Assembly (NCBI RefSeq): GCF_964355755.1
Contig: NC_092670.1
Location: 35,389,795-35,453,794, forward strand
DNA from: Antedon mediterranea
Taxonomy: Eukaryota; Echinodermata; Crinoidea; Comatulida; Antedonidae
Reading direction: 5' to 3'
DNA length: 64,000 bases
The position numbers were made by a program, and so were the translations under genes. The notes beneath the pieces are model-generated. The model saw only the letters and a list, made by a program, of their open reading frames with translations, ran no database searches and was not told where the DNA came from. This document shows, piece after piece, positions 3,563 through 43,255 of the stretch. The number at the start of each line of letters is the position of its first letter. Positions within the stretch are counted from its first letter, which is position 1.

Positions 3563-6500
3563 TCACCATGGAATCATTTGCCCACCACAGTTGATACAGT
3601 TTGTCTTTAAAAACATTTTAGACCAGTCATCTAAGGAGAAAATATAAAGAACAATTACTTTTCCTCTAGAAGAAACACTGTTCCACCTAACTTCTGTTCC
3701 ATTAAAAACCAAACCCTGTACCATCACTACCTCATCTCATCTGATACCCTACCACCAATCCACCTGACACCCTACCACCAAAGCACCTGATACCCTACCA
3801 CTAATCCACCTGATACCCTACCACCAATCCACATGATACCCTACCACTAATCCACCTGACATCCTACCACCAATCCACCTGACACCCTACCACCAATCCA
3901 CCGGACACCCTACCACCAATCCACCGGACACCCTACCACCAATCCACCTGATACCCTACACCTAATCCACCTGTTACCCTACAACCAATCCATCTGACAC
4001 CCTATAACCAATCCACCTGATACCCTACCACCAATCCACCTGGCACCCTACCACCAATCCACCTGATACCCTACCACTAATCCACCTGAAACCCTACCAC
4101 CAATCCATGTGACACCCTACAACCACTCCACCTTGATACCCTACCACCAATCCACCTGGTACCCTACCACTAATCCACCTGGTACCCTACCACCAATCCA
4201 CCTGATACCCTACACCTAATCCACCTGATACCCCACCACCAATCCACCTGATACCCTACCACCAATCCACCTGAAACCCTACCACCAATCCACCTGACAA
4301 CCTACCACCAATCCACCTGACACCCTACCACCAATCCACCTGATACCCTACCACCAATCCACCTGACACTCCACTACCAATCCACCTGACACCCTACAAC
4401 CAATCCACCTGATACCCTACCACCAATCCACCTGAAACCCTACAACCAATCCACCTAGCACATCACCAATCCACCTGGCACCCTACCACCTGACACCCTA
4501 CAACCAATCCACCTGATACCCTACCACCAATCCACCTGACACCTTACCACCAATCCACCTGATACCCTACCACCAATCCACCTGACACCCCACCAACCAA
4601 CTCACCTGACACCCTACCACCAACTCACCTCACACCCTACCACCAACTCACCTGACACCCTACCACCATGCCCACCTGGCACTCCACCACCAATCCACCC
4701 GACACCAACCCCCCTTACACACCCCCAAACTGAAATATCAATGTGTTATTTTTGTTCTTACAGTGGATTTGTTACTTTTCCATTTTTGTTTGTACAACTC
4801 AATCGTGATCCAAATTAAAGCAATATTTTCAAAATAAATCTCATTTCATAATACCAAACACTTAAAGAGGATATGCAACAAATTCAAATGTTATCCATTG
4901 GATATGTACCTGCTTTCGGCTTTATTGCAATGGCACCGCAAATATCACAGTAATTCGTCTGTGACCTTTGACACAACTGTAATGATTGACTACATCGTCC
5001 TATATTTAACAAAAAAAACAACCAAAACTAATAACTATTTTTGTTTCAGAAAATGCTAACACAAATTGTTGTTGACAAAGAAATTAAAGTCAAAGCAGTT
5101 AGGTAGGGGCGCCCCGAACCATAAGCCAAATCGGCAGATTTTATAAGGCTCTCCTTGACTACATTTCTGGTACAACGTTTTAAAAATGGAGGTCTAGTGT
5201 GCAAATCTGGCTTGTGTGCACTTCATTGTAGGGTTTACCACAGTTTCCTCCTCAGCCTCCGTTGTTGTGGACAGACACATTGACAACAGTTTCAACTTGG
5301 TGACGGTTATTATATAAAAGCGCAATATAAATAAATATGAATTAATTACTGTATATAAATATGAATCTATTATTTATCATAGTCAACTAACTAGTGAATC
5401 TAAAATCTAAATATCGTCCATGTACGCATTTGATTAAAGATGTATTGTCCCTTAAAAACATGAAAAATTAAGATAAATTTAATAGGTTACTTTGTAGTTT
5501 TAATCAATTTAATCACTTCCATAGGAAAACTAAATTTAAAAATAATGTTTTTACCTATAAAATAACAAAATAAATGGTTTCATTCAACCAAAAACTCATT
5601 GGCTGGCAGCCAATTGGACTATTTTTGGCTTTAGATTACATTTTTTCAGTTAAATAATTTTTTGTTTTGATCCAATTTTTAGTCAAAGTGGATAACTTTT
5701 ATGTGACATGAAAATGGTATATTCAGTCAAAAATGTTTTAAGAATTATTTTTTCAGGGGGACAATACATCTTTAAAACTTGAATACAATATTCAATTGTG
5801 TTTTAACAAAATTATCAGTTTAATACTTATGTTTATGTGTAATAATTTCTCAGAAATGAAATATCTAGCACATTTCCTGTACATACATAAATCATCTTTC
5901 GACAATAAACATTTCTTGGAAGACATTTTCCCATTAAAGCATTTAAAAATATTTACAAATTATGATTTATGATCGTTACTGAAATTAGCATTTATTTAAA
6001 ACATTATGTCATTCCATCAGATTATAAATCAATACATCTTCATAAAGTTTACTACAACAATGTACTGCAGTAATCAATCATAGTACTGTACATATATTAA
6101 TTAAACAAATAATATTTGCATACTTACTCCAGTTGTGTTTGTTTTTGCATTCATCTTCATATATATTAGTAAATGGAATATGTGAATTCACATTAAGAAA
6201 AATGATACATTATTGATTATATAAAATAAATTTCAAAAATCTTTGTCAAAAATCAATAGAAGTATAAAGTATTGTACATAATATTTCAGCGAGCACATAT
6301 ATCATATTCCTATTTATTTTTGTGATTAAACTAACAGCAGAAGCATTACTTACCATATCAAGTTCATCAGTATCAATCAGTGTCAATTTGTCTTATCACC
6401 GTATCATCATCTTGTCATATCATATTACTAAAATCATCAACATTTTTTTCTGACATTTTCTTCAATATGCATTGTCATAATAAACATTTTGCCAATTATT

Positions 6501-9500
6501 CTCATATCATATTCCATCATATTCATTATCATCATCATCATTAGTCATATCATATTACTAAAATCAACACCACTGTAATCTGACAAATTATTTTCTCATT
6601 ATTATCAACATTTTATTCAATATGCATTATCATACTAATCATCTTCCCAATTATTCTCATATCATATTCTTTACTATCATCATCTTCAATAATCATACAT
6701 ATTATCAATTTAATTATCTCTATCATCATCACATCAATATGTATCCATCCTGTAAATAGAGAATTCTCGCTGTTGAGTGTAAATAAGATAAAATCCTCTT
6801 TCACTACTTTTCATCATCATAATCTTACCCATTCACATTTTTGTTATCATTGTCATAACCATTATCATCATCAGATCATTATCCTTTATCACTTAAAATA
6901 ATCGAAAAGGATATCATTTTGACACAAACAACAGGATTCCCTATGTGTAATATTTGGGTTCGTCTTCTTCAACGAGTCGTAAATATTGTTTACTAACATC
7001 TTCTCTTCACCATCGCAAAGTGCGTTGCAACTTGACAGCCAGTTGAGGGCGACGTAAACTGTGGATATTTCTGAAAAAACGCACCAAACCAAAAAATTAC
7101 CAAAAAAACATGAATGTTAATGTACATTTAAACATTAGTCTAATTTTTCCTGCAGCAAATAATAGGGCTAAAGTAACCTTTTCTATAATCTTGGCTTTGT
7201 AGACCATGTATTGTAGATTTCTGTCCTACCATGGTTAATTTAAACAAAATCCTTCCATGCTGCATTGCATAATATAACTTTTAAAAACATCTGTCCTGAC
7301 GTCCATATGGTGTTACTTAAGCTCTGTCTACACTATCAAACTAGTTTGACAAAAAAAAGTGTGATGTGTCCAAATATGGTAGTGATATGCACAAATATGG
7401 TAGTGACATGACGGTGGACTAGAACACTAAAAGAGGAAAGAATTTGTAAAGTTTGTAACAATAATTTAGTTGAAAACAAGTTTCATTTTGTTATGTCCTT
7501 TATATAATAATGTAATTTAAGTAAAAAAGAAAATATTTATTCTAACCTTGCTAAGTTCATTTACTTTGCTTATAAAAAGAGAAAGCTTTATTTAACGCAC
7601 TTGTTTATTTTATTTTTTGTATTTGGGCCAATTGCCTACGTATAATAAATGGCCTATACTCCTAGGAAAGAAAGACATCATATGTCTATATATGGCGCCG
7701 TAGTTGGCTGCCGATGACACGATGTGACCCTTAGGGGAGAAGAATGTTGTTGAAAAGGTGTAACATCAAAGTACACAGCACTCTGACCTTCATGAAATAG
7801 TGCTATAAATGTCGCATACATACATACATTACATATACATCACATTTTTGACACATTAATAAAGTTTAGTAGTTTATACAGATCTTTATAATAATAATAA
7901 TTTATTTAAAAAAACTGAAAAAAAAAAGAATTAAGAATGGATAGACGAGTAGAAAACAAATTGAAAAACAAAGGCAAATACGTTCAAGTAGTGACAGACT
8001 CTTGACAGAGATCAGAGAGATCCATCATTCGCAAAGTAGAATCTACACTTGTGGATTAAAATATAATTTATAATGTATATGATAATGATGAAGTGAGAAT
8101 CAATATTGTTTGACATATATTATGATTTAATATTACAGCCAATTTATAACTCCAAAATCATAATTTCAAATGATTTAAAAAGCTTGCCTTAATATAATCC
8201 AGATAGTATGGCGACCTACATCTTTTTCTTACAAATAAAAAGGTGGTTTAAAAAATAATATTCAACCTTTAACCTATCATCCATTACTGCGTTCTGATTG
8301 GTCAAATTGCTGTTCTAGTATAACGACCATGCTTCTTAGTACACTAGAACCCCTTCATTCGGACACATACAGTATTTAGGGACAGTACTTTCCAATAAAA
8401 CGAATGAGGAATGTTTTAATATTATGGCCAAAATGCCTCTATTCAGGATACTTTGTTTGGTCCTGTATTTAATAGATGATTTTATACAAAACCTAAATAA
8501 GTTATTGTCATTTGATTGGATGATTGATGGTCACATGGCGTGGAATAGTACGCACTAAAACATATTAAGAAATTTTTCAATTCAGTAGTCATGTTAAAAA
8601 AAGGGTTAATGCATTTTTCAGTAATTCTATTACTACTACTTTAAACCATAAATATGCCATAGTTTTTACCTGTTTCTGTGAAAGATTGTTGTGAGACTTC
8701 CCAGAGCCTAAGGGAAGCCATTAAGTGCTCGGCTAAGAGGGTTTCAGTTATCTTGTCTGCCTCTGCTTCCTGTCAACACAAATAAAAGGAAGTGATCATT
8801 ATTTAAAATGATGGGGATGAAATACAATTCTCCCAATATCAGACATTCTTTGGCTGGCCTGATTTTGTAATAACAATTCATCAATTTTATCAACAAGTTT
8901 TAACAATTAGTAATACAATTTAAATCATTAAATTGACTTTTAATTTATTACTTAATAAATTAAATAATTTAAATATAGTAATAAACCAACAACATGTATA
9001 TGGTATTTTGAATGTGTTTTTAAAATCTAAAAAGATTTAGGACCATTTTTGGAAAAAATGGTTTTAGAAGAGTTTCTGCTTTTCAGAGTCCGGTTAGGAG
9101 CGTTATTTTCCATTTCATTGATAAAAAAGGAATCAAAATATAAAGCACTGATACAGATCAGCAAATCTGTACTGTCACCGCCAATTCTTTTAAATTGATG
9201 CTTATGAATTTTAAATATTTGTTGGAATTTCTAAATTGGGGCATCCATAACCAATTATGTAAAACTCATTCAAATTGTTGAAGAATTATTTGAGTACAGA
9301 CTTAGGGGAATTAATCATTTTAGACATTACTGAAATTGGTTGATGGAAAACACGATTTGTAATGTACACACACGATGCATTCTGGGAAAAGTGTTACAAT
9401 ATAGATTGTACATTTGGGTTTACTATACAAACACACTAGCATATAAATGAGATCAACTGAAATCGAATGAATTATTGTAAAGTGGATTATTTAAATTACC

Positions 9501-12500
9501 AATGCTAATCTTCAAAAAAAAAATTTCAAATCATCAGTATTGAATCAATTACTCTACATCCATAATACTGAAGTGGCACTTAAATACTTCACTTTGGTAC
9601 TATAATATTACTGATAAACTATTGTAACATGTGATGCCAATGTCATAAGGGCAAATAAGATGGCCACTACAAATAAAGTTTAACATGTATTATAATAAAC
9701 TTTATTAAAACAATAAGTGTTATAAAATATATATATAAAAAAGCATGGAAAAAGTATCCCATTGGAAAATATTTTCTAAATTATTTAGTTTAAATGGCCG
9801 TTGTCAGTGCCTGTCAAACAATGTCATTATTACCTCTCACTAAAAATGGTGTGCTATATAAATCCAAAGGCAAATTATTGAAAAAAGGATACTGCTGTGG
9901 GTATCAGTGGCAGGATCCCAATGGAGATGAATAATAAGCAAAAAAGCTAAAACAAAATAATAATAATATATACAAAAAATATTTATAGTGCTTTTGAGAT
10001 TTATTCTAAACACAAATTGTTTAGTAAATGATGTTAAATATTCTCCTAAAAAGTAGATAAATGTGTATAAACAGTCATAAATATAATGGTGTGAACATAC
10101 TTTATGCATTCCAAATTTTATGGGATCTGTACTTTGATAAAGTAATCATTCCACAAATTTAAAAATGTTTATAATTTTGGACTAATTCCAACAAAATTGT
10201 AAAACTTTATATAGGAAGGAATGAATTGCTTGTAATAATCAATTATTTTAAGAAAAAGTTTAAATTAAATTAGCATAAAATTAGTATGGAATAAATTAAT
10301 AATTAATTCTAAAAAAGGTTTAATTAAATTTAAAAAAAAGTGTAATAAAAGTTTTAAAAAGTTGTGCATATTGTAACTATTGACAGTTTCAGGTCACACC
10401 ATTTTTAGTGAGAGATAATAACGACATTGTTTGACAGGCACTGACAACGGCCATATAAACTAAATAATTTAGAAAATATTTTCCAATGGGATAAGTCGGT
10501 CTCCTTAAAGGCCGGTACACACTGAAAAAAAATACACAAGGAGCATCAAATCACACCATAAGTTTGACGGTTAGTGTGAACATCCAATTAAAAATGTGCA
10601 AGTTTAATTCAACTTTTATTGTCAGCGACTGACTTTTTGTCTGAAACTTTATTATACCTCAAGTACTATACGTATGAAATGCTATATGTGCCAAAATATT
10701 TATCTTTTTACCAATATTAGGTCGAAATGCTGTCTATAACCTAGACTGGTATTATCAGTACAATAATATCTAAGTTTCAGTTGGAGTATTCTATTTTTCA
10801 ACAACAAATTATTCATTTCAATTTCATAAAGTAAATTATCTTGATTTTCTAGATTTAAAACATATTATTCATAGAATAAAAAAACATGATTGATTACAAT
10901 ATAATTTAAATTAATGAGAAACCATTAGTAGTAATTGTATTAGCTCAAGAGAATTGCCCAACTCATAAAAAATTAAGCACAATGGCAATTTCGAAAAAAT
11001 TATATTGCTATATAAATCCAAAGGCAAATTACTGAAAAAAGGATACTGCTGTGGGTATCAGTGGCAGATCTCAATGGAGATAGATAATAAGCAAAAAAGC
11101 TAAAACAAAATAATAATAATATATACAAAAAATATTTATAGTGCTTTTGAGATTTATTCTAAACACAAATTGTTTAGTAAATGATGTTTAATAATCTCTT
11201 TAAAATAAAAGTAGACAAATGTGTATAAACAGTCACAAATATAATGGTGTGAACATACTTTATGCATTCCAAATGTTATGGGATCTGTACTTTGATATAG
11301 TAATCATTCGACAAATTTAAAAATGTTTATAATTTTGGACTAATTCCAACAAAATTGTAAAAGTTTATATAGGAAGGAATGAATTGCTTTTAATAATCAA
11401 TTATTTTAAGAAAAAGTTAGTATGGAATAAATTAATAATTAATTCTAAAATGAGGTTTAATTAAATTTTTTTTAAAGTGTAATAAAGTTCTAAAAAGTTG
11501 TGCATATTGTAACTATTGACAGTTTCATGTCACACCATTTTTAGTGAGAGGTAATAATGACATTGTTTGACAGGCACTGACAAAGGCCATATAAACTAAA
11601 TCATTTAGAAAATATTTTGTAATTTATTAAAATTTCTCACCATATTTGTAATGGTTTGCTGACGATTGTGGTCTTCTTCTAGACCATGAGGGCGCTTTCT
11701 TTCGCATATTGCTTTCAATTTGCAGTTGAAGAGATTCAACTGGTTCAAATATTTATTATGGCCTTTGCTCTTTGCATCAGGTTTTGGAATAGATAACTGA
11801 TCAACCTCCTCATCATCAACAGCAGTAGCAACAGATTGACGAAATAACTCTAGATACTCCAACTTGTTTGCAATATCCTCACCTAGGGCAAAATATAAAC
11901 CATATATATTATTATTTTTAAATTCTATTTTGACAAACCAAAATTAGTAACTGACCTGAATGACACTTTTAGTGCTCATTTCACGAGTACTTTCTTCAGA
12001 GTGACGACTATATTGTTAAGCAAAATGCTCACCGTTAGGTGGCGTTCACCTAGTAACAATAGGGTCGTATACGTGACTCAGGAAATGGGCGCCTTTGTCT
12101 CGGTTCATGGTTTTCTCTCCTCTTCGTCTGCCTGATCCATATTGTCCCCTTGATGCGTCTGGTGTTTCCATCTTCTGCCCTGTCTATGATCCTATTGTTA
12201 GGCGAACAATGAGCGCTGGAACTGTCAGTTACTAATTTTGGTTTGTCAAAATAGAATTTGAAAATAACGTATCTTCAACCCAGATGAACATTTTCAATCA
12301 ATTATATATATTAATTAGTTCCATTCCTAAATTGTTTATATCTACCAAGCTATCTTCATTGTTTTCTACTCTTACTCTCTCACCAGCCTATTTTTTTTAT
12401 TTTTTTTTATTTCAGTCCACTCAGGCAGTGCTTTTCTTCCTAAATACTTTTTCCAAGTACTCTTATCTGCACTGATGAAGGGCTAGTAATGCCGGAAAGC

Positions 12501-12606
12501 TCTGCTTATTTTTCTGGCTGTTTTACTTTATCATTTTGATTTAGCTTTTTGCTTTATTAGGTTATATGCATGATATGCATATAACCTCTTGATTCTGTCA
12601 AAATCT

Positions 12607-12653
<47 letters not shown>

Positions 12654-15600
12654 TTCTTTCCTTAGCACTATTTGTCCGTGAATTATCTTGGCATCAGTTT
12701 CATCTATCTAAGTCAATTTTTCAGAGTATATTCCTTATGGCCAGGAATCGATGTGGTTATGTTTTCACGATGCGCAATCAAAAATTACGCGGTCTACGCG
12801 CGATTTAACGAAATCACGTTTGTAATCATATCTTCACAAACATGAATCACTTTTAAACAAAATTTGGTACTCATAAATTTCAGGTCACATTTCATCATAT
12901 GGCAATACAATTACGTGCGTAGCGCATATAACGCATGCGTACGCGCGCTTAAAATGTTGAAAATTGTCAGAATTTATTTTCGATGAAATTAGAGTACGTT
13001 TCAGGCAATTTTAAGCGTTTAAAAAATTGCCATGAGTGCGCAGATTTTTGCACGCGCACTGCGCGTCAAACGTTAATGCGCACTGTTTGTGTCCGATTAC
13101 TGTTGTATAACCTTTCTTTAATAATATCATCATATTTTATTCACTTTTCAACGCGAAACAGCGTTATACGAGCACGTCAAAAGTGACGGGCTACGCACGT
13201 GTAAGTTAACAAAATGGTGAAAATATGCTAAATTTTAAAATTAATATATATCGTTAGAATGCTCGGGAACACCTATTTTTTATTTAATTTTCTTGAAGTG
13301 TATGTATCATATGTATGATTTATTATGAAATTAGAAGAACAAAAGTTGATTAAGTCATCATTAATGGCATATTAAATTTAACAAAATTAATTTCGACAAT
13401 CAAACAAATTATAACATTTTCTTAGGCCAAAATAACAAACTTAACGTTAACTTTCTTCCTTAAGAAGTTCATATATTAAAGTTAAAAGTATATAGTTTGA
13501 CAGTGCATCATTTTTTTAAATTTTTAAAGATGTCATCATAGTAAAACATTATAATTTATTGCGGTATGTATTAATCTATCTGCACCAAAGTGGTTACTGC
13601 ATAGTAAATACATGGAGGAATTTTTCTCCAACTTTTAGTCAGTTGTGTATGGCTCGATGGTCTGTGCTCGTGTCAATGGCATTCAAGGTACCGAGTTCGA
13701 GTCTCACCTTGGGAAACGAAATAAGATTTTTTTTTATTATCCGTATTGTTCAAATTTATTTCTTAGTGTATATATTATACACATGATTTATAATGAAATC
13801 TAGATAAAAAGTTACTTTATGTCTTTATTATTATGTAACAACAAATGCGGTTTATGACATTATACGCAGAGGGATCTTTGATCGGATTGTGATACCGGCT
13901 ATGGTGTTCGCGTTAGCAAGGTCCTATCATATATTATAAATAATTAAAGATTCTGAGAAAATCAATCAATCAATATATCTTTTAAAAATCAATTATCTTT
14001 ATTTAAATCAATGCATATAACCTATAATTCGTCATAGTGACGAATTAAATCTAGTTCTATTTTGTATCTTCATTGAGATTCAGCCACTGATACCCACAGC
14101 ATTGTCATATTTTTTTTTAGTAATTTGCCTATGGATTTATATATATATATATATATATACAGTACAGGATATTACGCTCCTCTACTTTCTGCTATATACA
14201 TATATACTATGTTGTTTTGTAGAGCACTCTTCAGTTCGAAATGGTGCATTTTTGTTGTGAATACTAAATTGGCATATTAGCAACACTATTTGTATTTTTG
14301 TATTGTATTTGTATTTTGTATTTATATTTGTCCTCAAGCTTAACTGGAAACTGAGGAAATTCGGATTAGGCCCTCCACGGACCCACGGCAGCCAGCAGTG
14401 CAGCGCCTACCAGATTAGCACACCGGGAGACGATCCCCTACTCTTTTCGAATAGTGTACTAAGTTCTTTAACGTGCACTGTTAAGTACACGGGACCAACG
14501 GCTTTACATCCCATCCGAAGGACGAGGCAATGAGAGTAAAGCATCTTGCCTAAGGATGCAATTAGTATGGTACAGATAACCTCGAACCCATGCCTATCAC
14601 ATGCTAGTCCGATATTACCATTACACCATCACTCTCCAGTATATACAGCACCCGCCACAATTTCTAGACGGTCTCCCAACCAGAACGCAACCGGGCCCAA
14701 CATTGCTTAACTTCGGTGCCCTGCATAACTGGCTAAGCCTATATTTTGTGCCAGTTCTGCGGTACATTTCATTTAGAAACCTGAGCTGCACTGACGAGAT
14801 CTAATAAGATCGAAACAAGATCGAAATAGTACTGTCTGCAGGATATATATACAGTATATATATTTTCTTTTTCTTTATTGTTGTATCTAAAGGTCTTGCC
14901 AAATTGTATTTTTGCTTTGCTAGATGGATCAGCCTTATAAAATAAAATTGAAAAAAATTACATATATCAAATTATCATTTGTAGGAATAATTATTCTCTT
15001 TTTTTTTAAACCAAAAGTACAACAAATTCTATGTCAATTTGATTATTGACGTGCCCATTTATTATCAGGTATATTATATTATTATTATCTAATTATTACA
15101 GCTTAATTAAAAATAAAACAAATTAAACTACTATCAAAAACATTTTATAGGTTTTTTGATTGTTTGGAAATGGAGTGTTGGTTTCTTACCATTACCTGTT
15201 ATTTATTGTTGACAAAATAGTGTGATAGCATAACTTTTAGACTGACTATTTCTAGCAAATGTTGTTAATATTTCAAATATGGTATATACTACCACTATTG
15301 TTTAGCTGTCTTAAATGGCTATAAATTGAAAGAACTGCTATGGAATTTCATTTTATTTATTTCAACAATATTTTATGAGGGTGGTCCATCCAGCATCAGC
15401 TGATCATTAGGGACCCTCAAACAATACAAACAGAAAATACAAAATAAACTATAAAAACATAAAATTAACAAAGATAAAAATAAATAAAATTAGAGAAAAT
15501 CAGATAAAAGGAAATAAAAAAAAACAGAAGATAGAGATAGCTGAAACATAAAATACTTATAAAGAAAACGTAATGTAAGAATGTATGTCAGACAATGAAG

Positions 15601-18600
15601 TACTGTAAACAAAAGCCATTGGAGAACATTAGAAACATTACATTGTATAACCTGGCCTACAAATATAAATAACACTCTTAAAAACAATGTCGGTTGAAAT
15701 TGATATAACATTTAAGGTAACTAAAACACAATTTACCATTATTCAATTATGAGTAAACTAGGTTGTATTGCATTGTTTTTATAAGATCATTGCGCACACT
15801 TCTATTTGAAGTATATTTAAGCTATACTAAACGAGAGAATGTACTGTGTTTGAATCATAATATCTAAACTATCGTTGCTATTAAGTGTTTTGCGAGTAAG
15901 GGTATAGTATTGTAAAAATTATGAACATTGTCAATTTTGCATCACATATCTTTACCAAAAAGCTTTTAATACAAATTGGAATAACGAGTAGTTTGGGTAG
16001 ACAACTTCTCACATTCATCGATTGTCTGAACTACAGTACTCTTGTTGGTAAGCTTCAATCACTGCCATTTCATAACTGATTTATTTATAAATTCAAAGGC
16101 AAATTACTGAAAATAATGACAATGCTGTGGGTATCAGTTGCTGGATCTCAATGGAGATATACAATATAATAAGCAAAAAACTAAATCAAAACGATAAAGT
16201 AACACAGCCAGAAAAATGAGCAGAGCTTTCGAGCAACAAGTGAGAGTACAAAGTAGAGAGTATTAAACAGACAAGCGCTGCCTGAGTGGACTGGAATAAA
16301 AGAAATAAAAACAAAGGAGGCACAGGCTGGTGAATAGAGGGTGGAGAGAGTAAGAGTTTGAAAACAAAGAAGATAGCTTGGTAGATACCTGTATAAACAA
16401 TTTTGGAATGGAACTAAAAAACAACTAAAATGGTGGTTAAAATATTTAAATTTAAACTTATGTAGTCAATGGAATAATTTTACCAATCTAGGAGTATATT
16501 CTTAATGTTAAGTACAAAAGGTTTTTTGGCATAATATGTTATAATGTATATTTTTTTCTATATGGTATACCTTAACTCAAAACATCTTCTGCCATTAACC
16601 TGTAACTTGGAGTTGTTGTTTTAATATTAGTTTTCAAAGTATGAGTTTTAAGTTTTGATTTCTGTATTTTGTATTTAATTGAGTGTTGAAATATGGTAGG
16701 TAAAACAAAAATTGTGTTTACTTATTTACCTTGGTCAGGGTTTAAAAGCTGCTGATGTAACTCTTCAGCTTCTATTTCCCAGTTAAATTTTACAAGGTCG
16801 CTCTTGTGCCGCTTCCGAGATCGTTTAATATTTCTAGAAAAAAAAAGTAATTTAAATATAATACTAAAACAACAAATAACGATTGTATGTTTTAGAGAAG
16901 AATTGCGCATGTACAATGTTTTTTTTTTTTTTTTTCACCTTATTTTGTCACATAAACTTTGATAGTGTAGAAAGAGCTTAATAGAGCTTAATATGCACAA
17001 TGAAGACAGTTCTAGTCAAAGTTAATAAGTCAACAAGTTTTTAACAGACAATTTCTCACTAAGAACCGTACGCAGTCTTTAACGGCACACTTACGTGCAG
17101 ACCTCGACAGAGAAGGCAGCATTGGGTGAGAAAACTGTGCCATAGCTAATTTTGCTTCTTGTTTTGGGTGCTTCAGCAACAGTGGTAGAAAGAACGAGCA
17201 AACTCCCTTCAACTTTGACAGTGATTTTTTGTTTCATCATAGTCCTACTAACAACAGTTATAACATCTCCATCTGAGCCGAGACCTGTGAATAATAAGAA
17301 CAAAATAAATCTCTTATTGCTAGTTGTTTATTTTTGTTTTAATGTAAAACGCAATGTGGCTTTTAGCATAATGCCCTCTATCTAGCCCGATTTTTTATTA
17401 TTATTATTCTCTATCAACATGTTCTACTGCTGAATGTTCGATCCAAAGGACCAGGCACCAAGAGTAAAGAATGGTAGAACACATATTATAAAGGACACCT
17501 TCAGGACCCAAAAGTGTCCACTTAATAGGGGTACCCCTTGAATAGGGAGAGATACTGCTAGCCATCGTCTTTGCGTAAGGCTGCATAACTAACTAGAAAG
17601 CCACTCCGAGAGTGCATACCTCCGCCTACTGTAAAATTCTCCTACATAAGATTTCTCCGGTAAAAAATATATCTATAAATATTTGTGTGTGTCTTAATGC
17701 TGTTTGCGATTTAGGCTAATTTCACTACAAGCATGTGTATTCGAGTTTGTAACAAGCCTTTCAATTAACAATAGGTTCAGTTGACTAACAATAGAACAGC
17801 AATGCGAAAATCAAACGAGTGAATTTGAAAAGAAATAGGTTTTTTAAACTACTCGCATCAACAAACGTGCACATTAAATCAAGTTATGTTTTAAAATTAC
17901 AAATCACAAATTATAACTCTTGCCTCTTGTACAAAAATGAAGTTTTTTGGACAAGTAGTTCTCGAGAAAATGCAATTTCAGTTAACTTGTTACTTTAAGA
18001 CTGCTCACCGGCTTTTGAAAAATTCTGTCCTATCTTTTAACACTAGCAGGTCTGAAAAGTATACTCAAAAAGTGGTCCAGAATTGGGACTGTGGTCCCAA
18101 ATGGTCCCAAAATATAATGGAATGGTCCTTGACCACATATCTATCTGTATATTCATTTTGGTAAAGATCTTGTAATTACTTTTTGAGCAATCCTGCTAAC
18201 AAACAAACAAACAAATGAAAGCACTCAGAAACTGAGTGAAATACTTGGCAAAATATATCCACTGACTCGGAGCATGTTGAAAGATACATTTTTTTTGCTT
18301 TAGGTATTAGCTTTACATTGTTAAAATCCTGCTGGGGTTAATAATGTGTTTAAATAATTTTTTGATACAAACAACTCCGGCATTGCAACAATGACCTTTC
18401 TAAAATCAAGATTGACCAGAATAATGATCGAGGAGTGTCTTGAAGCTGTACCGATTTGCGGCGCCTCTGCCTTAACCCATGTAGTAATATATCAATTTAC
18501 CTGAAAATCAATAGGCATGTTCTGTAAGTATATACCTGATGAAATAAGGAAGGACACACGCTGGTGCTAACAAAACTACTTATCAACTTACAATAGTTTA

Positions 18601-21600
18601 ATTTGAATAACAATAGAACAGCAACGCCAAAAACAAACGGGTGAATTTGAAAAGAAATAGGTTTTTTTAAACTACTCGTATAAAAAAGCTGGTACACTGA
18701 ATCAACTTTTGTTTTAAAATTAAAAATCACAATTTATAACTCTTGCCTCTTGTACAAAAATGATGTTTTTTGGACAAGTAGTTCTCGAGAAAATGCAATT
18801 TCAGTACACTTGTTACTTTAAGACTGCTCGCCGGCTTTTGAAAATTGTCTCCTATCTTTTAACACTAGCCGGTCTGAAAATAATATCATTTTTGTTATTT
18901 GTGAAGTTATTAATAAACCAATTTTGTTGATTTTCAATAGGCATGGTCTGACAATATATACCTATCGACACCCAAAAATTCAGAACGATAACTTAAAAAC
19001 TGTAGGCGCTATCGTGCTAACAAACTAACAAACAAACAAACAAACATACAAACATACATACAAACAAAGTGAATACTATACTTGGCAAAATTCTTTTTTG
19101 CCAAGTAACAAACAGACAAACAAACACACGCTACCGATTACATATACCTCCTTGGCGGAGGTAAATAAAACGGCTATTTTGACTGTTATGATTTCACGCT
19201 CTAGCGACACAGGATATTTGTTGTCTTCCCCCTAACCGTCATGTTTTGTAAAGTCCGTAATGTCTCTTCTAAATGACTAGGCACCAAGAATAAAGTATGT
19301 TTAATTTACAATCCAATATTGCATTTAAATCCTTTACATACTTTTAAACTTACCAGTAACTTGAGACGAGTGTAGTGCATGCGTGTACCCTTTTCTTATT
19401 ACTTTTGGGTTGCCATTCTCATCAGAGTTTAAATCGAACACCAAAATGTATTGACCTTTGGCACAAACAAGTCTATAGAACATCTGCAGAAATAAAAATT
19501 ACTATTTTTAACCAAATGAAAAAAGATTCTTTGGAATGGAACTGTCAAGAAATTGTATAAAAAGAAAGTGACACAATATGTACTTAAGGACATCATTCTT
19601 CCTTCAATTGAACATTGAATTTATATTCACTTTTCATAAATTAAAATACTGTATTATTTTAAAATCAATATTTCTTTTTAATTGAAGAACAGTACATATA
19701 ATGTAACTTATAGTGACCTACATTTAATTCTTAAGAATAAAAAATTCAATATTAGTATTACTCATTTTGGACACTTCTATTAAAGACACTTTCATTTACT
19801 TTCATGAAACAAACAACTTGCTCAAATATACGGTATGTTTAAACACAATGGCCACGCCCTTTTTAATGAACACCCCGAATGGCCACGCCCTTTTTAGTGA
19901 ACACCCCTAATGGCCACGCCCTTTTTAGTGAACACCCCTAATACAAGATGGAATTGAGAATTTAAACTCAATTAAGAATAAACACTGCTGTGCCACATAT
20001 GATTAAGAATCACCTCATTTTCTTTTTTGTCAAACAAGCTCCACCAGAAGAAAGAAACTTCAATCAAATCTTCTTCCCAAAGTGTTACTTGATTTGCTAA
20101 AGTTACTTGTGATTCTGGTTCCTTTGTAGGGTCAAAGTTCAACTTCAAAATCTGTATTCGTCCATCAGTGGTTCCAACTACAAGTAAGCTATCCTCCAAT
20201 TTTTTTGATTTCTGTTCCCATTTGATAGAAGATGGAGAAGGAATTCCAGCATCTAGAATGCCAATGAGGCTAATATCATCTCTAGAAGATTTAGGAAAAT
20301 TACTTAGTTGAAATGAATTGAGACCATTCCCTGTTATAAGGTAATAGAAGGATAATTAGGAGCAAGAATTTTCTGCACATTGTCGTTTACTTTTCACTCT
20401 TTAAATGAATTCAAACAGTTAACTTAACATACTGTAAGTTTATATGTGTGGATGGAGGTTACAGTAAAGTTCATTGAACTTTAAGTCGAGGCATAATGAC
20501 AATGATGTAGGACTTAATTCTTTGAATACAAGAGATGACAGATTGTGGTAGACCAGTTATCATAAAACTTTAACTTACATGCACGATGACAGCCTCAACC
20601 CTGCTTAACATGTACAGTACATACATTTTCAATAGAATTGCATATCTTATAAAATACATATAATTTTGCTTAATTTTATTTTTCTAATGGCAATATGCCC
20701 TACTTTACGGTGGCTCCAACACACCGTGACATTACGGGTTTGGGATAGAACTGACTGTCATGAAATGAAATCAGTATATAAATACATAGCAAACTAAAAC
20801 ATAGTTTGACAAAAAAGTTTGATGCCCAAATATGGTAGTATTATGACATCATCATGTCCATATATGGGCACATCACATTTTTTGTCACATAACGTTTGTT
20901 AGTGTAGACAAAGTTTTAGATTTAATGATTAAGTAGCTTACTTGGATATAAATGGAAGTAAGCATTTCCAAAATATCAATAGTCCATCTATTGTGTAAGT
21001 AACAAGAACTGTATAGGCTCTCTCTCCTGCTTCGATTCTTTCATTGTACACACCAGACCAACACATATCTAGAAGTATCAGTCAAAAATATATAACACTG
21101 AAAATCATAATTTTAAGTAATTAGGTTAGGACACCTCTATTCAGGAGACAACCTGCAATATAAGTTTTGACTTAATAGGGTTCTGCTGTTATGTGAGGAA
21201 TACAAACAATGCCAGGTTGATTATTTGTGAAATGAACGAGTGGAATATATGTTTCAACAATACAGGCCACCTCTATTCAAGGGACACGCCTATTAAAGAC
21301 GACACCCCATTATGGGTGACAGAATTCTTTGAAATAAACAAGGGGAAATACATATGTTTGGACACTACAGGTGTCCCCTAGGGTTTTACTGAACAAAAAC
21401 CATGCAAGTGATTATTTGTCAAATGAACGAGTGGAAATATATGTTTTTAACCCTACAGACTTTTTAAGGGACACTCCTATTAAGGAGACACCTACATTAA
21501 AGGACCACCCCTATTAAGAACACAAATTTTTTGGTCTTGAAAGTTTCTCCCTTAATAAGTGTTCTACTTTATGTTAATATAATAATAAAAAGAGAATACA

Positions 21601-24201
21601 TCTGATTACCATTAATAGATACCATTGAAAATCTATTTATAGCCAAATCGATGATATTCATTCCACCAGGATCAGGCCTTAGTCTGTAACCTTTGTCCTT
21701 AGCATAGTCAAGTAACATAGAAGAAACATTAACCACCTAGGAAAATGAAAAGAGGGAAGAGTGAATGTAATTTAGACATATGATTTAGTAATATTTGTAT
21801 TGGCCTACATGTGGTATTAGATGGTATAATTATGAAGGTAGTTATGGCATTGTAAGTGCCACCGGCGAAGATTGTCCCCCTTAATCACAAAATCATTAAA
21901 TTGTTGAAATGAAATAAAAAGTAAGACTATGACACGCATGGCGTATCGTATGTAATATCTTCAGACGCTTGATACGAGAAGAATTAAATTATGTAAAGAA
22001 TTTGCACATCAATGCGTCTGTTCCAATTTCTTCAAAGAGTGGTTTCCTATTAATTCTCGTTCTCACAGTATGCGCCTTAGTAAATCCAACAAATTTCTCA
22101 TCCCCCGTGCTCGAACCGAAAGATATGCCAAAAGTGCTATACCCTTTCTTGCCAAACTCCTTAATGACAAATTATTCTTGTTTTATTGGTCGTCAATTGC
22201 AATTTCTTCTTGCGTGTTTTTGTACTGCTTTTGTAAATTTTCAATTTTGTATATTTTTTATAGATTCTTGAATTTTTCTTAAAATTTTTAGATTTTTGTC
22301 CTTTTGATGTGTACATTATCATGGTAATATTGTTTTAATTCAGCCTTGTGCTGTGATTATGATATATTGAATAAATAAAAAAATAATGAATAAATATCAG
22401 AAAATATAGTATCTAATCTATTTGCATGAATATAACCCAGTGCCTAAAAGTGAGTAACCCAAAATAATTATATTTTTTTATGTGCTCAGAAATCAATTGA
22501 AACGACCTATAAATTACTCAAAGAGCCGGACTTCTTAACGTCGGATTTTTACCCCCTTTCCTGTAAAATCGTTGAATCCGGTCCATTTAACGCAACTTAA
22601 CGTGACTGGAAAATAGGCTTTAGGCATGATCTTGAGACTTGTCTGCTTGTACTATAACATGCTTTACACTTGACTTGTCTTTCAGATGGGACATTAGGAG
22701 GGATCATTTTATAATGTGCTGATCATAGTTCTGTAGACTGTGGATATTGTGTGGGCACAAAGGTGACATAATTCAAACTTTTTTAGTTCAGAAATATATT
22801 TCCTTGACTGCTGTACAGTGAGCTTCAGACTCAAGCACCATTGGGAAAGCAATAATCATGGCCACCCCTAAATGAATGACAATAAAGCAAGGAATTTCCA
22901 TACCTCTTTCCATTTACCTAATGTTGTTTCAACATATAGTTTTAGTTGATGGTCGGTCTTTAGAAATGACAAAATACACCTAAAAGACAAAGAATGTATT
23001 ATTGTAAAATATAAAATTAATCATCACCATGTCAATTATGCCATAAACCCTCCGCCACTATTTTTAATGTTCTTCTCTAGACAAGTCTCAAGATCATGCC
23101 TAAAGCCTATTTTCCAGTCACGTTGAGTTGCGTTAAATGGACCGGATTCAACGATTTTACAGGAAAGGGGGTACCATTTCAAAATCTTTTGATGTCAATT
23201 TATACAACTCGGTAAAAATAAAAACCAGAATGAAAACAAATTATCAAGACTATCAGACAATAGAAGAGAAATGTAAAAATGAAATAAAATGATCATGTAT
23301 CAGATGAGAAAAGAGAAATCTTTAAAAATTGAACTTAAAACATTACCTATTTGTGTTTGTACATCCTTTTGGGGACCAACATATTGATCTTTGAACTGAA
23401 CGCATGAGACCACCTGATGCTGCATCACCAGTGGGTTTTCCAATTGTGCCGTCTATATGAAATCTTGCTCCACCATCTAGTAAAAAAAGGATTTTTATTT
23501 TACTCAAAGCTTGCACTTAGAATTTGTGTAATCTGCACAGAGAAGTATTGAAAATATTAAATTGCTGCTTTGAAATTAAATACATTTTTTTGCAGAATTT
23601 ACTGGGATATTTTTTTTAAAGTTTACCACAGTTTTTGTTGAAATTGCTGGTTAGCTTATCAGAAATTTTCTTTACAGACAGTCCATTGGTAGAGTAGTAG
23701 TGGTGATCTTCATACTCTACTGCACATTTTTGGCAGACAAATGTGTTGCTGGTGTTTTCAATCTTGCACACTAACCTCTGAAAAAATGAAACAAATTACA
23801 AACAAAGCAGGCACTTCTTGAAAAGGCGCTTTAAATTGATTAGTAGGCCAGGCCCTAGCTGGTTCATTACAGAGAAAAGGTCTACGTCAATAACAAAAAA
23901 ATAATTGGGGGCGAATCAACCTCGAATCAACAAACGTACGTCTATGCCGCTAGGTTGGTGTACTGTCTAGGTAGGCATATATGCATACGCTACCCGGCCT
24001 ACATACAGATCGCAATAAAACCTACTCATAATTATATAAACAAAAGAGCTCATTTAATTATGATTACAAGCAAACTATTAAATGATATCATACAAATATG
24101 TTTATAGTCTTTTCAGATGCAACGGCAACCGTCAAATCATCAGAAATCGCAACAGAATTGCATCCATGCAAAGCACTAGCAATATTTATGGAAGCTGACA
24201 T
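3563..24201 (-). CDS. GTF3C4: General transcription factor IIIC subunit 4 (TFIIIC90), 16 exons
   Basis: Subunit of nuclear TFIIIC, which recruits RNA polymerase III to tRNA-type promoters. Exons, 5' to 3': 24094-24201, 23627-23777, 23347-23476, 22904-22979, 21610-21736, 20942-21068, 20014-20302, 19354-19483, 17095-17284, 16730-16833, 11641-11882, 8670-8769, 6915-7070, 6128-6181, 4910-4999, 3563-3630. The spliced frame is 713 aa (human about 822). The N-terminal half is propeller-like and carries family signatures such as ICWSPKGC, MCWSG and FWKCLLPF. The C-terminus is the TFIIIC zinc module: CCLC (638-641), DIPFT, C655, H659, R663-C664, C671, C679-x2-C682 and C703-x2-C706, followed by stop. 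This order matches the family. Uncertain points: the exon 6/7 junction (the strongest acceptor, at 20330, breaks the frame; 20302 keeps it) and the non-canonical intron 13. The gene is divergent from METTL18. Confidence 0.85.
3737..4722. repeat. Minisatellite of about 23 bp units in the last GTF3C4 intron
   Basis: About 40 units of a degenerate repeat with core 'ccacctgataccctaccacc' followed by 'aat'. Variants with 'gacacc', 'ggtacc' and shortened units are scattered through it. It has strong strand asymmetry: C-rich on plus and purine/G-rich on the transcribed strand of GTF3C4. It fills most of the intron between exons 15 and 16 (3631-4909). Confidence 0.95.
5101..5345. mobile_element. Possible SINE-like repeat in GTF3C4 intron 14
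   Basis: A GC-richer block in AT-rich intron DNA, ending in 'tatataaaagcgcaatata' followed by an A/T tail, as short retroposons often do. No tRNA A and B boxes were seen, so the class is not established. Confidence 0.3.
5434..5775. mobile_element. Short inverted-repeat element bounded by TTAA
   Basis: The ends are 'ttaaagatgtattgtccc' and its reverse complement at 5758-5775, so a TTAA lies at each boundary. TTAA targets are typical of piggyBac-type insertion. Total 342 bp with no coding capacity. A related, more decayed copy in opposite orientation lies at about 46410-46751. Sits in GTF3C4 intron 14. Confidence 0.6.
6182..6914 (-). other. GTF3C4: Putative U12-type AT-AC intron (GTF3C4 intron 13)
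   Basis: Read on the minus strand, the intron begins 'atatccttttc', which matches the minor-spliceosome AT-AC donor. It ends 'ttaatgtgaattcac', with a branch-like 'tttcttaat' whose A lies about 11 nt before the terminal AC. Splicing here rejoins the frame as CCLCQN-D-IPFT, which keeps the family spacing between zinc ligands. A reading through the GT in 'ttttaagtgata' does not. Confidence 0.7.
6340..6860. repeat. ATC/TCA-rich tandem repeat inside GTF3C4 intron 13
   Basis: Simple (TCA)n-like sequence with a larger tandem duplication of about 130 bp. 'gtcatatcatattactaaaa' occurs at about 6414 and 6543, each copy followed by 'caatatgcattgtcat' or 'caatatgcattatcat' and then 'attctcatatcatattc'. 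Confidence 0.7.
7318..7410. mobile_element. Palindromic MITE family 1, left half
   Basis: Begins 'aagctctgtctacactatca' and carries 'aaactagtttgac' and 'caaatatggtagtgatatg'. Only the left arm remains. Other copies: 20789, 28204, 28820, 36519, 59098 and a fragment at 16944-16983. In GTF3C4 intron 12. Confidence 0.7.
9755..10493. mobile_element. Non-autonomous DNA transposon with terminal inverted repeats of about 100 bp
   Basis: The left end (9755-9853, starting 'tatcccattggaaaatattt') is repeated in reverse complement at 10394-10493 with few mismatches. The 540 bp between has no coding capacity and contains the 'ataaatccaaaggcaaatt' and 'gatactgctgtgggtatcag' words shared with repeats at 11008, 14060 and 16085. 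Located in GTF3C4 intron 11. Confidence 0.85.
11008..11618. mobile_element. Second, 5'-truncated copy of the 9755-10493 transposon
   Basis: About 600 bp in direct orientation to the first copy and closely similar over the internal region and right terminal repeat. The left terminal repeat is missing. Its right end stops 22 bp short of the 5' splice site of GTF3C4 exon 11 (exon boundary 11641). Confidence 0.85.
11920..12259. mobile_element. 340 bp foldback element with perfect 36 bp arms
   Basis: Arms 11920-11955 and 12224-12259 are exact reverse complements (inner end 'attagtaactgac' against 'gtcagttactaat'). The similarity extends imperfectly about 10 bp further out. The GC-richer interior has no ORF. 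The left arm begins 37 bp upstream of GTF3C4 exon 11, so it overlaps the region where its branch point should be. Confidence 0.85.
12300..12557. repeat. Dispersed repeat, inverted partner at 16160-16421
   Basis: Shares 'cagtccactcaggcag', 'gaaagctctgct', 'tttttctggctg' and 'accaagctatctt' with the reverse complement of 16160-16421. Lies directly between the foldback element and the 12558-14024 element. Confidence 0.7.
12606..12654. repeat. (ATTT)n microsatellite
   Basis: Twelve uninterrupted tetranucleotide units. Confidence 0.95.
12700..13200 (+). repeat. CpG-rich dispersed repeat, copy 1
   Basis: Contains 'aattacgcggtctacgcg', 'acgtgcgtagcgcat' and 'cgttatacgagcacgtc', which is unusually CpG-dense for this window. 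A similar copy lies in reverse orientation at about 50760-51240, inside an intron of the CUB gene. Confidence 0.8.
13630..13720 (+). mobile_element. tRNA-derived SINE head
   Basis: A-box-like 'tggctcgatggtc' and B-box-like 'gagttcgagtctc' are spaced about 50 bp apart, as in a tRNA-type polymerase III promoter. They are followed by a T-rich stretch. The fragment does not fold as an intact tRNA. Confidence 0.55.
14310..14640 (-). mobile_element. tRNA-derived SINE with conserved core
   Basis: On the minus strand the head carries 'ggtgtaatggtaa' (A-box-like) and 'gggttcgaggtta' (B-box-like). The body contains the plus-strand words 'actaagttctttaacgtgca' and 'catccgaaggacgag'. These correspond to 'actaggttctttaaagtgca' and 'tatccgagaagactcg' in the SINE at 52815-53120, whose head is different. 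Confidence 0.7.
15343..15720 (-). mobile_element. Possible 5'-truncated non-LTR retrotransposon 3' end
   Basis: Read on minus it ends '...ttgttgaaataaataaaa' after 'gatcagctgatgctggatgg', which resembles a retroposon 3' end with an A-rich tail. No reverse transcriptase frame remains. Confidence 0.35.
16160..16421 (-). repeat. Inverted partner of the 12300-12557 repeat
   Basis: Same words as 12300-12557 in reverse complement. It is preceded by a 'gctgtgggtatcagttgctg' segment shared with 9890, 11040 and 14090. Confidence 0.7.
17605..19163. mobile_element. Repeat element with internal duplication, GTF3C4 intron 8
   Basis: The left border 'gagagtgcatacctccgcc' and right border 'ccttggcggaggt' form short inverted ends. 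Inside, a segment of about 190 bp (17865-18062) is repeated at 18690-18880, sharing 'ttggacaagtagttctcgag' and 'ttgttactttaagactgctc'. (CAAA)n runs lie at 18200 and 19020-19050. A short relative with the same borders lies at 26025-26205. Confidence 0.6.
19847..19939. repeat. Three tandem 31 bp units
   Basis: Starts at 19847, 19878 and 19909. The unit begins 'aatggccacgccctttt' and ends 'gaacacccct'. Copies are nearly identical. Confidence 0.95.
20789..20919. mobile_element. Palindromic MITE family 1
   Basis: Carries 'catagtttgacaaaaaagtt', 'atgacatcatcatgtcc', 'gggcacatcacattttttgt' and a right end 'agtgtagacaaag'. Lies 22 bp downstream of the GTF3C4 exon 6 boundary. Confidence 0.65.
21219..21540. 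repeat. Direct repeat with 191 bp spacing
   Basis: 'gattatttgtgaaatgaacg' at 21219 recurs as 'gattatttgtcaaatgaacg' at 21410. Both are followed by 'agtgga...tatatgtttt/c', and a 'ggacac..ctattaa' motif is scattered after each copy. Confidence 0.7.
21950..22400 (+). mobile_element. CR1-like non-LTR retrotransposon, 3' fragment
   Basis: An open frame from 21971 to 22282 reads as the C-terminal end of a non-LTR reverse transcriptase polyprotein. Typical features are RRIKLCKEFAHQC, then FFKEWFP, then KFLIPRARTERYAKSAIPFL with the stop shortly after. The 3' tail is '(ttgaataaataaaa)'. The element is 5'-truncated and therefore dead. In GTF3C4 intron 4. Confidence 0.75.
22551..23171. repeat. 93 bp inverted-repeat pair flanking GTF3C4 exon 4
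   Basis: Arms 22551-22644 and 23079-23171 are near-perfect reverse complements ('tcctgtaaaatcgttgaatc' against 'gattcaacgattttacagga'). The 434 bp between includes exon 4 (22904-22979). Exon 4 encodes conserved TFIIIC sequence (CILSFLKTDHQLKLY), so the arms are more likely two opposed insertions than ends of one element carrying the exon. Confidence 0.9.
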
Positions 24202-40700: not shown

Positions 40701-43255
40701 ACAATTCTACATTACATTTACCATTGTCTGTAGAGATGATTCGAGACTGTCCTGTAACTCTTCAAGTACCAGTGTGATGTTCGAGTGCCATCTACACATG
40801 TCAGTGACTGCTGCTCCCCATGTAGAGTTAAGAGAAAACGGCATCCGTCTAATTAAAAAACCCTGCGGTGGAGGAATGCACGGCCTGTATGCCATGGAGC
40901 TAGGATGGTAGAATGGCCATACACCATTGGGACAGGGAAGGTAAGCATAACTTCCCGCAGTAGTTGTATTCCACATAAAATCACCCTTCAAATCATCGGT
41001 TGGGTCACTCCAGCAGATATCTGAAACATAGGTATACCACAGAAGTTATTGTATGCCTAATGATTTGTTAACATGTGTTTTTCAAACTAAAAAAGGGATT
41101 ACTTTTTTTTATTAAACCTTTTCTGACTTCAAGCAGCATTTGTTATGTAATTGTCCAATAGTTAAAAGGATATGGAACTTCCTCCAAGAAAAAAAGGACA
41201 GTATTTTTAATACAAAATTGATACAATTAGAATCATTTATAAATCAAAGATGAAATTGTTAGAGATTATAATAATTTTTATGAACCTTTATTTTATTTTA
41301 TAAGGAGATGGAAATCTATGTTGTTTTTGTTTGCTTTTAATTTTAATTTTAATATGATTATGTTTTCCTTTGTAATGTCTTATAATTATGAAAAAGATAG
41401 ATAGATAGATTTTTCAAGACACATCCATTCACTGATAATACACATTTAGTTCATGTATAGTATAACATGTTTGGATTGAACAATTTATTAACGTAACAAG
41501 AAAACATAGGTCTGGCCATACCTAGATAAGCATTTTTAATTAATTATTTAACATTGCGCGTTTATAATTGGCAAAATAGCAATAATCTTCTTTACATCTA
41601 ATGGAGTGACGGGTAATGTTTGGTGTACTAGTTACTAAACATACTAAACAATCAAATTGTAGGCATGTATCAAGTTATCGTGTAATTCTTCGTTCGCAGA
41701 TGTTCTTAATGATACGGGATAATGATAAGCCAATAACTAAGCACCGGATACTCATACACGGTATTATAAGTTCGTAACAGGGAAATTCATCATAATATTC
41801 ATACAAAACAGATTTCCTATGGAAAGCTCCATTAGAGTTCTCGCTAAAGTTTGGATTCAACCATGCTTTACATCGGTGGACGTCTTAAACAATTGTAATA
41901 CCGGGTGTTGACGAAAAACAAAGTTAATTTGACAATAAAAGCTGTTCAAAAGTTATCAATGATTGGTCCACGGAACTATTTAACTTACCGTACCAGGTTA
42001 AATAACTAAACCTGAACGGACCGGCATTTTATATACGGTATCTAAAGATTGTATATGCTTAAAGGTAAAAACGGTACTGTACATAAGATTTTCCACTCCC
42101 GTGCGCATTACGCAATTTCATCACGTGTCACACACGATACTTATTTTTAAAATTACATGCGAGCATTTTTCAAAGGAGTGCTTAACAGTTAAGCACTCCG
42201 TTTTAGGGAAGATCATCGCAAACGCACATTGACTTCAACTGGAGTGCTGAGTGTTTACCAAACATGTTTCAATAGCCTCTTCCTGTGAAGCTTTTATTTC
42301 AAGAGTTTGTTTAACGATTGTAAAGTGTTAAGTAAACACAATTGCGATTGCTTCCAACTGAAGCACTAATAGTTTCACATCCAACAAGCAATAAAAGCAA
42401 AGAATATCATGGAAGCATTATTCGTTGGTTGGTGTTTCTTTTATAATTCTTGGAAGTCCAACCAAGAGTGTGTCAAAATATGTTTGATATCACTAACGTT
42501 AAGAAAACACCGCCTTCAAGTACTTGGAGTTAATGCACATGGTGTACTAAAGTTCATTGTAGAGGTTCTACCTGTCTATGTATTATACAGTACATTATTT
42601 TTATTCAGAAAATTATTCAGGTAACTTTTATAATAGCAGGTTTTGATAAATTATTGGGCTTTTTGTGTGTTTAAAACTGTACTATATAAAACATATTCAG
42701 GTAACTTGTATTGTAGCTGGCTTTGATAAATTACTGGGATCTTTGTGTGTTTAAAATTATACTATATGAAAAATTAACTTATATAAAACACAATGAGACT
42801 TTTACACATTTCACTGTTGACACGCCTTGATGTGCCTGTTCACATTCACCGAATCATATCAGAGTGATATCTGATGTATCTATTCAAGTTATTAAGTCCG
42901 ATATACAGATAACTCCGATAGGTCATACTACATACATCAGGTTAAGAGCGCAGAACAAGTTAAACATAGATAAAATAACATTATTCTCACCTGTCCTGCA
43001 TTCTTCTGTTGAGGGAGCATCCGCATTGTCCTTATGTAATTCTCTGAGTTCTTCAGGACTGGCAATTGTTGGCAAGGGCGCCATGGTTGATAGGAACTCA
43101 GGAACGAATCGTGAAGAGAAGTTTCTCAGCAAGTCAGATTTGTGAACAAAATTACCTTGATTATATTTATCTGATATGCTATCTGCTACAGTTTGTTTTA
43201 TGACAATTATAATAAATAGTTTTAAAATAGTTGATGAACGGTTCTTTTTGGCCAT
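34709..43255 (-). CDS. Adhesion G protein-coupled receptor, 14 exons
   Basis: Cell-surface receptor of the adhesion (class B2) type. Exons: 42991-43255, 40722-41020, 39933-40189, 39476-39702, 39112-39356, 38864-38945, 38336-38496, 37807-37907, 37126-37388, 36693-36774, 36056-36180, 35950-36006, 35458-35603, 34709-34948. The frame is continuous over 849 aa. Order: signal peptide (MAKKNRSSTILKLFIIIVI); hormone-receptor-like motif (about 85-135, CWSD, CPNGVWP, YRPC); GAIN domain (about 190-480); GPS with SWSEAEC and RCLC (to 482); TM1 YIGYILSTISLILTIMTYAI; TM2-TM3 LVNLSVSVLLLLLVLVI to LALVKVF; TM4 GLPLFIVSTPFLL; TM5 FYWVFVFPMALIVIF; TM6 ALFVLLGLTWVFGA; TM7 ALFVIGLTFQGFFIFVFHC; then a Ser- and Arg-rich tail. 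The usual HL-T cleavage residues are replaced. Exon 9 uses a GC donor. Vertebrate subfamily not assigned. Confidence 0.88.
36519..36678. mobile_element. Palindromic MITE family 1 in a GPCR intron
   Basis: 'ctatacactatcgaacttta' at the left and 'aaactagtttgatagtgtag' at the right, with 'gatgatgtcatatcactacc' inside. Its right end is 14 bp from the end of the exon at 36693. Confidence 0.8.
36933..36990 (-). mobile_element. SINE tail fragment
   Basis: 'ttgaattgaattgaattgaa' followed by 'tatactgctgggtaacctct', the same border as the SINE beginning near 52815. In the GPCR intron between exons 9 and 10. Confidence 0.5.
42609..42773. repeat. Tandem duplication of about 83 bp
   Basis: 'attcaggtaactt.tat..ta' then 'gctttttgtgtgtttaaaa' at 42609-42690, repeated at 42694-42773. 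In GPCR intron 1. Confidence 0.8.

Follow-up and report, generated by a model that had tools for sequence, protein, structure and literature searches.

How does a gene keep its protein in one piece where a coding exon runs into an intron that opens with AT and closes with AC? In the window analysed here, a stretch of 64,000 nucleotides of the Antedon mediterranea genome, this question is raised by GTF3C4, in which such an intron would fall between the exons that encode the zinc ligands of the protein. Judged from the DNA, this is almost certainly a genuine U12-type AT-AC intron in single-copy GTF3C4, removed between AATG and ATATTCC. The gene lies on the minus strand, and its exons are the following.

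24094–24201, minus strand: likely first coding exon (MSASINIASALHGCNSVAISDDLTVAVASEKTINIF), recognised by eye only and outside the joined model
11763–22979, minus strand: eight in-frame exons of the TFIIIC90 beta-propeller
22979–22904, 21736–21610, 21068–20942 and 20281–20014, minus strand: beta-propeller exons 1 to 4
19483–19354, 17284–17095, 16833–16730 and 11882–11763, minus strand: beta-propeller exons 5 to 8, the end at 11763 being provisional
8670–8769, minus strand: upstream exon, joined in frame to exon A (EAEADKITETLLAEHLMASLRLWEVSQQSFTET)
6915–7070, minus strand: exon A, ending CCLCQN(D), with the first zinc-ligand pair
6128–6181, minus strand: exon B, (D)IPFTNIYEDECKNKHNW(R), with the further ligands C and H
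4884–4999, minus strand: exon C, the last coding exon, RCSQSLQLCQRSQTNYCDICGAIAIKPKAGTYPMDNI-stop, with a provisional 3′ boundary

The eight exons from 22979 to 11763 form an in-frame chain with no stop, and their resolved donors are GT, of the U2 type. The last four exons (8769–8670, 7070–6915, 6181–6128 and 4999–4884) likewise chain in frame, down to the stop codon. The model is provisional at its 5′ end and in the stretch from 11763 to 8769. The first part of the gene matches the TFIIIC_delta profile (PF12657) with 50.4 bits against a cut-off of 27, and the only solved structure matched by the whole exon chain is human GTF3C4 (8cli_B, E 3.6e-22). No second good copy of the three C-terminal exons was found in the 354 Mb genome, and the donor stretch of the AT-AC intron occurs there once. 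Taken together with the zf-TFIIIC profile described below, these matches uphold the identity proposed in the preliminary description, and support a single-copy GTF3C4 encoding TFIIIC90, a subunit of the RNA polymerase III factor TFIIIC.

Read down from 7070, exon A closes TGT TTG TGT CAA AAT G and is followed by ATATCCTTTTCGATTATTTTAAGTGA. Exon B reads AT ATT CCA TTT ACT AAT ATA TAT GAA GAT GAA TGC AAA AAC AAA CAC AAC TGG A, directly followed by a U2-type donor, GTAAGT. Between the two lie the intron and its signals.

6182–6914, minus strand: U12-type AT-AC intron, 733 nt, phase 1
6905–6914, minus strand: U12-type 5′ splice site ATATCCTTTT, complementary to U11 and U6atac
6192–6200, minus strand: branch-site motif TTTCTTAAT, complementary to U12 snRNA
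6182–6183, minus strand: terminal AC, the 3′ splice site

The first base of the intron is 6914 and its last 6182; it starts ATATCCTTTT and ends TTTCTTAATGTGAATTCAC, with AATG|ATATCCTTTTCG at the donor border and ATTTTTCTTAATGTGAATTCAC|ATATTCC at the acceptor border. Its GC content is 25.5% and its 3′ terminal sequence is CATTTTTCTTAATGTGAATTCAC. The donor at 6914–6905 conforms to RTATCCTTT and matches the U12 consensus over its full length. The branch site TTTCTTAAT differs from the consensus TTCCTTAAC at two positions, both of which could still form G-U pairs; either of two adenosines in it may be the branch point, at 12 and 11 nt from the last base of the intron, where about 11–13 nt from the 3′ splice site is usual for this class; these distances fall within the published optimum of 11–13 nt (PMC3584512). 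After the branch motif only GTGAATTCAC precedes the AC, with no pyrimidine tract, so that the termini are those of a U12-type intron (AT-AC or GT-AG, without a strong polypyrimidine tract), here in the AT…AC form. The intron splits an Asp codon, G|AT, and this phase 1 position agrees with the tendency of U12 introns to avoid phase 0 (PMC7367187). Both the intron and the next exon open with ATAT, hence shifting the intron by one to four bases leaves the mRNA unchanged; read from the sequence, none of these shifts yields GT-AG. The coordinates 6182–6914, the donor, the branch motif and the terminal AC had all been given in the preliminary description, and re-reading the sequence returned them exactly; the branch distance of about 11 nt that it quoted corresponds to the two adenosines at 12 and 11 nt. 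Inside the intron, from 6752 to 6352 on the minus strand, a U2-like acceptor (TTTACAG|GATGG) and a strong U2-like donor (TATG|GTAAGT) stand some 400 nt apart, a pair seen by eye that is possibly a cryptic exon or a decoy.

Could the major (U2) spliceosome excise this intron all the same? AT-AC termini are also found outside the U12 class (PMC3584512, PMC8280824), and U2-type AT-AC introns such as SYCP2 intron 5 and TAF2 intron 1 (PMC8280824) share their terminal dinucleotides with the GTF3C4 intron. Such introns occur in a few genes. The GTF3C4 donor and branch site are of the U12 type: the donor is ATATCCTTTT and not the ATAAGT-like, U1-matching sequence of U2-type AT-AC introns, and the branch site, 11–12 nt from the intron end, is not separated from the acceptor by a pyrimidine tract. 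Excision by the major spliceosome is accordingly very improbable.

Slightly more improbable still is the use of a GT-AG intron at this place, which would change the zinc module or cut the C-terminus short. All GT-AG, GC-AG, AT-AG and AT-AC introns with a donor in 7000–6861 and an acceptor down to 6128 were enumerated, and 38 stop-free joins reach the terminal stop. Three of them are GT-AG joins, whose donors lie at 6932, 6929 and 6923 and which share an acceptor (last intron base 6155); yet each removes the conserved IPFT segment and at least part of the first CxxC, and their donors, GTTGTT, GTTTGT and GTCAAA, are poor. The zinc module is kept in only three of the 38, all of them AT-AC joins with the acceptor at 6182, and among these the join from 6914 alone combines a U12 donor with the human spacing. 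Moreover, the IPFT codons are preceded by an in-frame TAA at 6212, and the sequence that separates the two contains no AG; thus no AG acceptor could deliver exon B whole.

The protein that results from the AT-AC join matches the Pfam zf-TFIIIC family (PF12660) with 40.6 bits (E 2.8e-10, cut-off 23), and at the junction it aligns without a gap to human GTF3C4 (8cli_B), CCLCQNDIPFTN / CSLCKEILPFTD. The unspliced reading, CCLCQNDILFDYFK-stop, ends after FDYFK, and the read-through protein matched no relevant family in the profile search. When the PF12660 profile was run against the whole genome nothing was found, as is expected because the module is split over three exons. The preliminary description had thus rightly read the stop after FDYFK, the zinc-module spacing that the intron preserves, and the location within a pair of zinc-ligand-coding exons, CxxC in exon A and C…H in exon B. 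It had further proposed that TFIIIC90 maturation depends on U12 splicing, and this would probably be so because no other intron type restores the zinc module.

How much of this could be due to chance? The donor alone is weak evidence, since ATATCCTTTT is seen twice in the window against 0.53 expected. Genome-wide, 318 copies of the 11-mer ATATCCTTTTC compare with 280 of its reversed control, and the consensus branch followed by CAC is counted 25 times against 20 for its reverse, each at most a slight excess; these counts prove nothing by themselves. More telling, TTYCTTAAY followed by AC within 5–11 nt has a single occurrence in the window, both strands counted, and that occurrence is in this intron. 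When the intron was shuffled 20,000 times with its dinucleotides preserved, a donor-like word never appeared in the first 12 nt, and YTTAAY correctly spaced from the terminal AC appeared in 0.7%. The strongest evidence is that the splice sites lie exactly where protein homology needs the join, and in the right phase; a chance coincidence of donor and branch signals at positions so defined by homology and phase is not credible. A pseudogene or a misassembly with a coincidental AT-AC match would draw on the provisional parts of the model (the 5′ end and 11.7–8.8 kb), but this is the least probable account, given eight stop-free in-frame exons that match TFIIIC_delta and human GTF3C4, a last set of four that chains to a stop codon, C-terminal exons without another good genomic copy and a donor stretch found once.

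The second ATATCCTTTT of the window lies at 41173–41164 on the minus strand and continues with AACTATTGG; no coding exon was seen by eye to end there, and it is treated as a chance occurrence. From 41173 downward on the same strand, there are exons whose translation resembles an adhesion GPCR in its hormone-receptor-like region (CWSDPTDDLKGDFMW…), a candidate identity for that neighbouring sequence.

The machinery that a U12-type intron calls for is encoded in the same genome, which contains genes for U11, U12, U4atac and U6atac, all above the Rfam gathering scores: U12 with 125.7 bits, U4atac with 97.6, U6atac with 136.6 plus a weak second match, and U11 as two diverged loci with 88.6 and 82.9 bits (at C5:11057853 and C8:13519935). 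The donor ATATCCTTTT is complementary to the U11 5′ end, AAAAAGGG, and to GAAAGGA of U6atac. The branch motif TTTCTTAAT pairs with UAAGGAAAAU of U12 snRNA, with 10 contiguous pairs predicted for the U12 of this genome, and the predicted pairing energies are −7.4 kcal/mol for U12 and the branch site, −7.3 for U6atac and the donor, and −5.8 for U11 and the donor. The assignment to the U12-type AT-AC class made in the preliminary description is borne out by the donor and branch consensus, by this snRNA complementarity and by the presence of the minor snRNA genes. CENATAC (CCDC84), an AT-AN-specific splicing factor, was found on contig C8. When it was depleted in human cells, 92% of the A-type minor introns were affected (PMC8280824). 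The genome also contains three CHHC zinc fingers that belong to the zf-U11-48K family, two of them neighbours at C1:36872864–36873648 and one at C1:17371156. Tandem pairs of CHHC fingers are also typical of Gtsf1-like proteins; any of the three may be a candidate U11-48K, and the neighbouring pair could be Gtsf1-like.

We infer that in the animal the transcript is spliced at these AT-AC sites. In the order of events established for the minor spliceosome, the donor ATATCCTTTT would be bound through base pairing by U11 and the branch site TTTCTTAAT by U12, after which U6atac would take the place of U11 and the intron would be excised between AATG and ATATTCC. The CxxC part of the zinc module at the C-terminus of TFIIIC90 would thereby be fused to its C…H part. 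Were the intron retained, the frame would run only a few residues into it (ILFDYFK-stop), and another exon junction would follow downstream of this stop. A stop in such a position invites nonsense-mediated decay, and the intron-retaining GTF3C4 mRNA is for this reason a likely target of that pathway. It is an unlikely, speculative extension that TFIIIC90 levels, hence tRNA and 5S transcription, are set by minor-spliceosome capacity in this lineage; if true, intron retention would strip the zinc module and trigger decay, linking U6atac/CENATAC activity to RNA polymerase III output.

With this intron, a core RNA polymerase III factor would join the genes that need the minor spliceosome to keep their coding sequence intact. 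The wider weight of the finding hinges on whether other animals share the intron. It is a well-supported addition to the well-known class of animal U12-type AT-AC introns, of which human IPO5 intron 21 is an example (PMC8280824), and it resembles them in its donor (ATATCCTTT), its YTTAAY branch 11–13 nt before the terminal AC, the missing pyrimidine tract, a phase other than 0 and its single occurrence among U2-type neighbours. What sets it apart from the known members is its host gene: among the papers searched, none links GTF3C4 to minor introns, U12-type introns or the minor spliceosome, though the intron may already be catalogued in supplementary intron lists or databases. It also carries a warning for annotation: software that accepts only GT-AG introns would here predict a truncated GTF3C4 or a garbled zinc module.

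Like human GTF3C4/TFIIIC90 (8cli chain B), the crinoid protein combines a beta-propeller with a C-terminal zinc module, with equal spacing at the splice point, but its tail past the H-x-W-x-RC motif is shorter. Directly downstream of the 3′ end of the gene, positions 3741–4706 hold a tandem array of a 23-base unit (CTGATACCCTACCACCAATCCAC) in at least 33 copies, about 87% alike, and a further tandem array at 1139–2645 has periods of 122, 188 and 318 bases, with repeats 90–96% alike.
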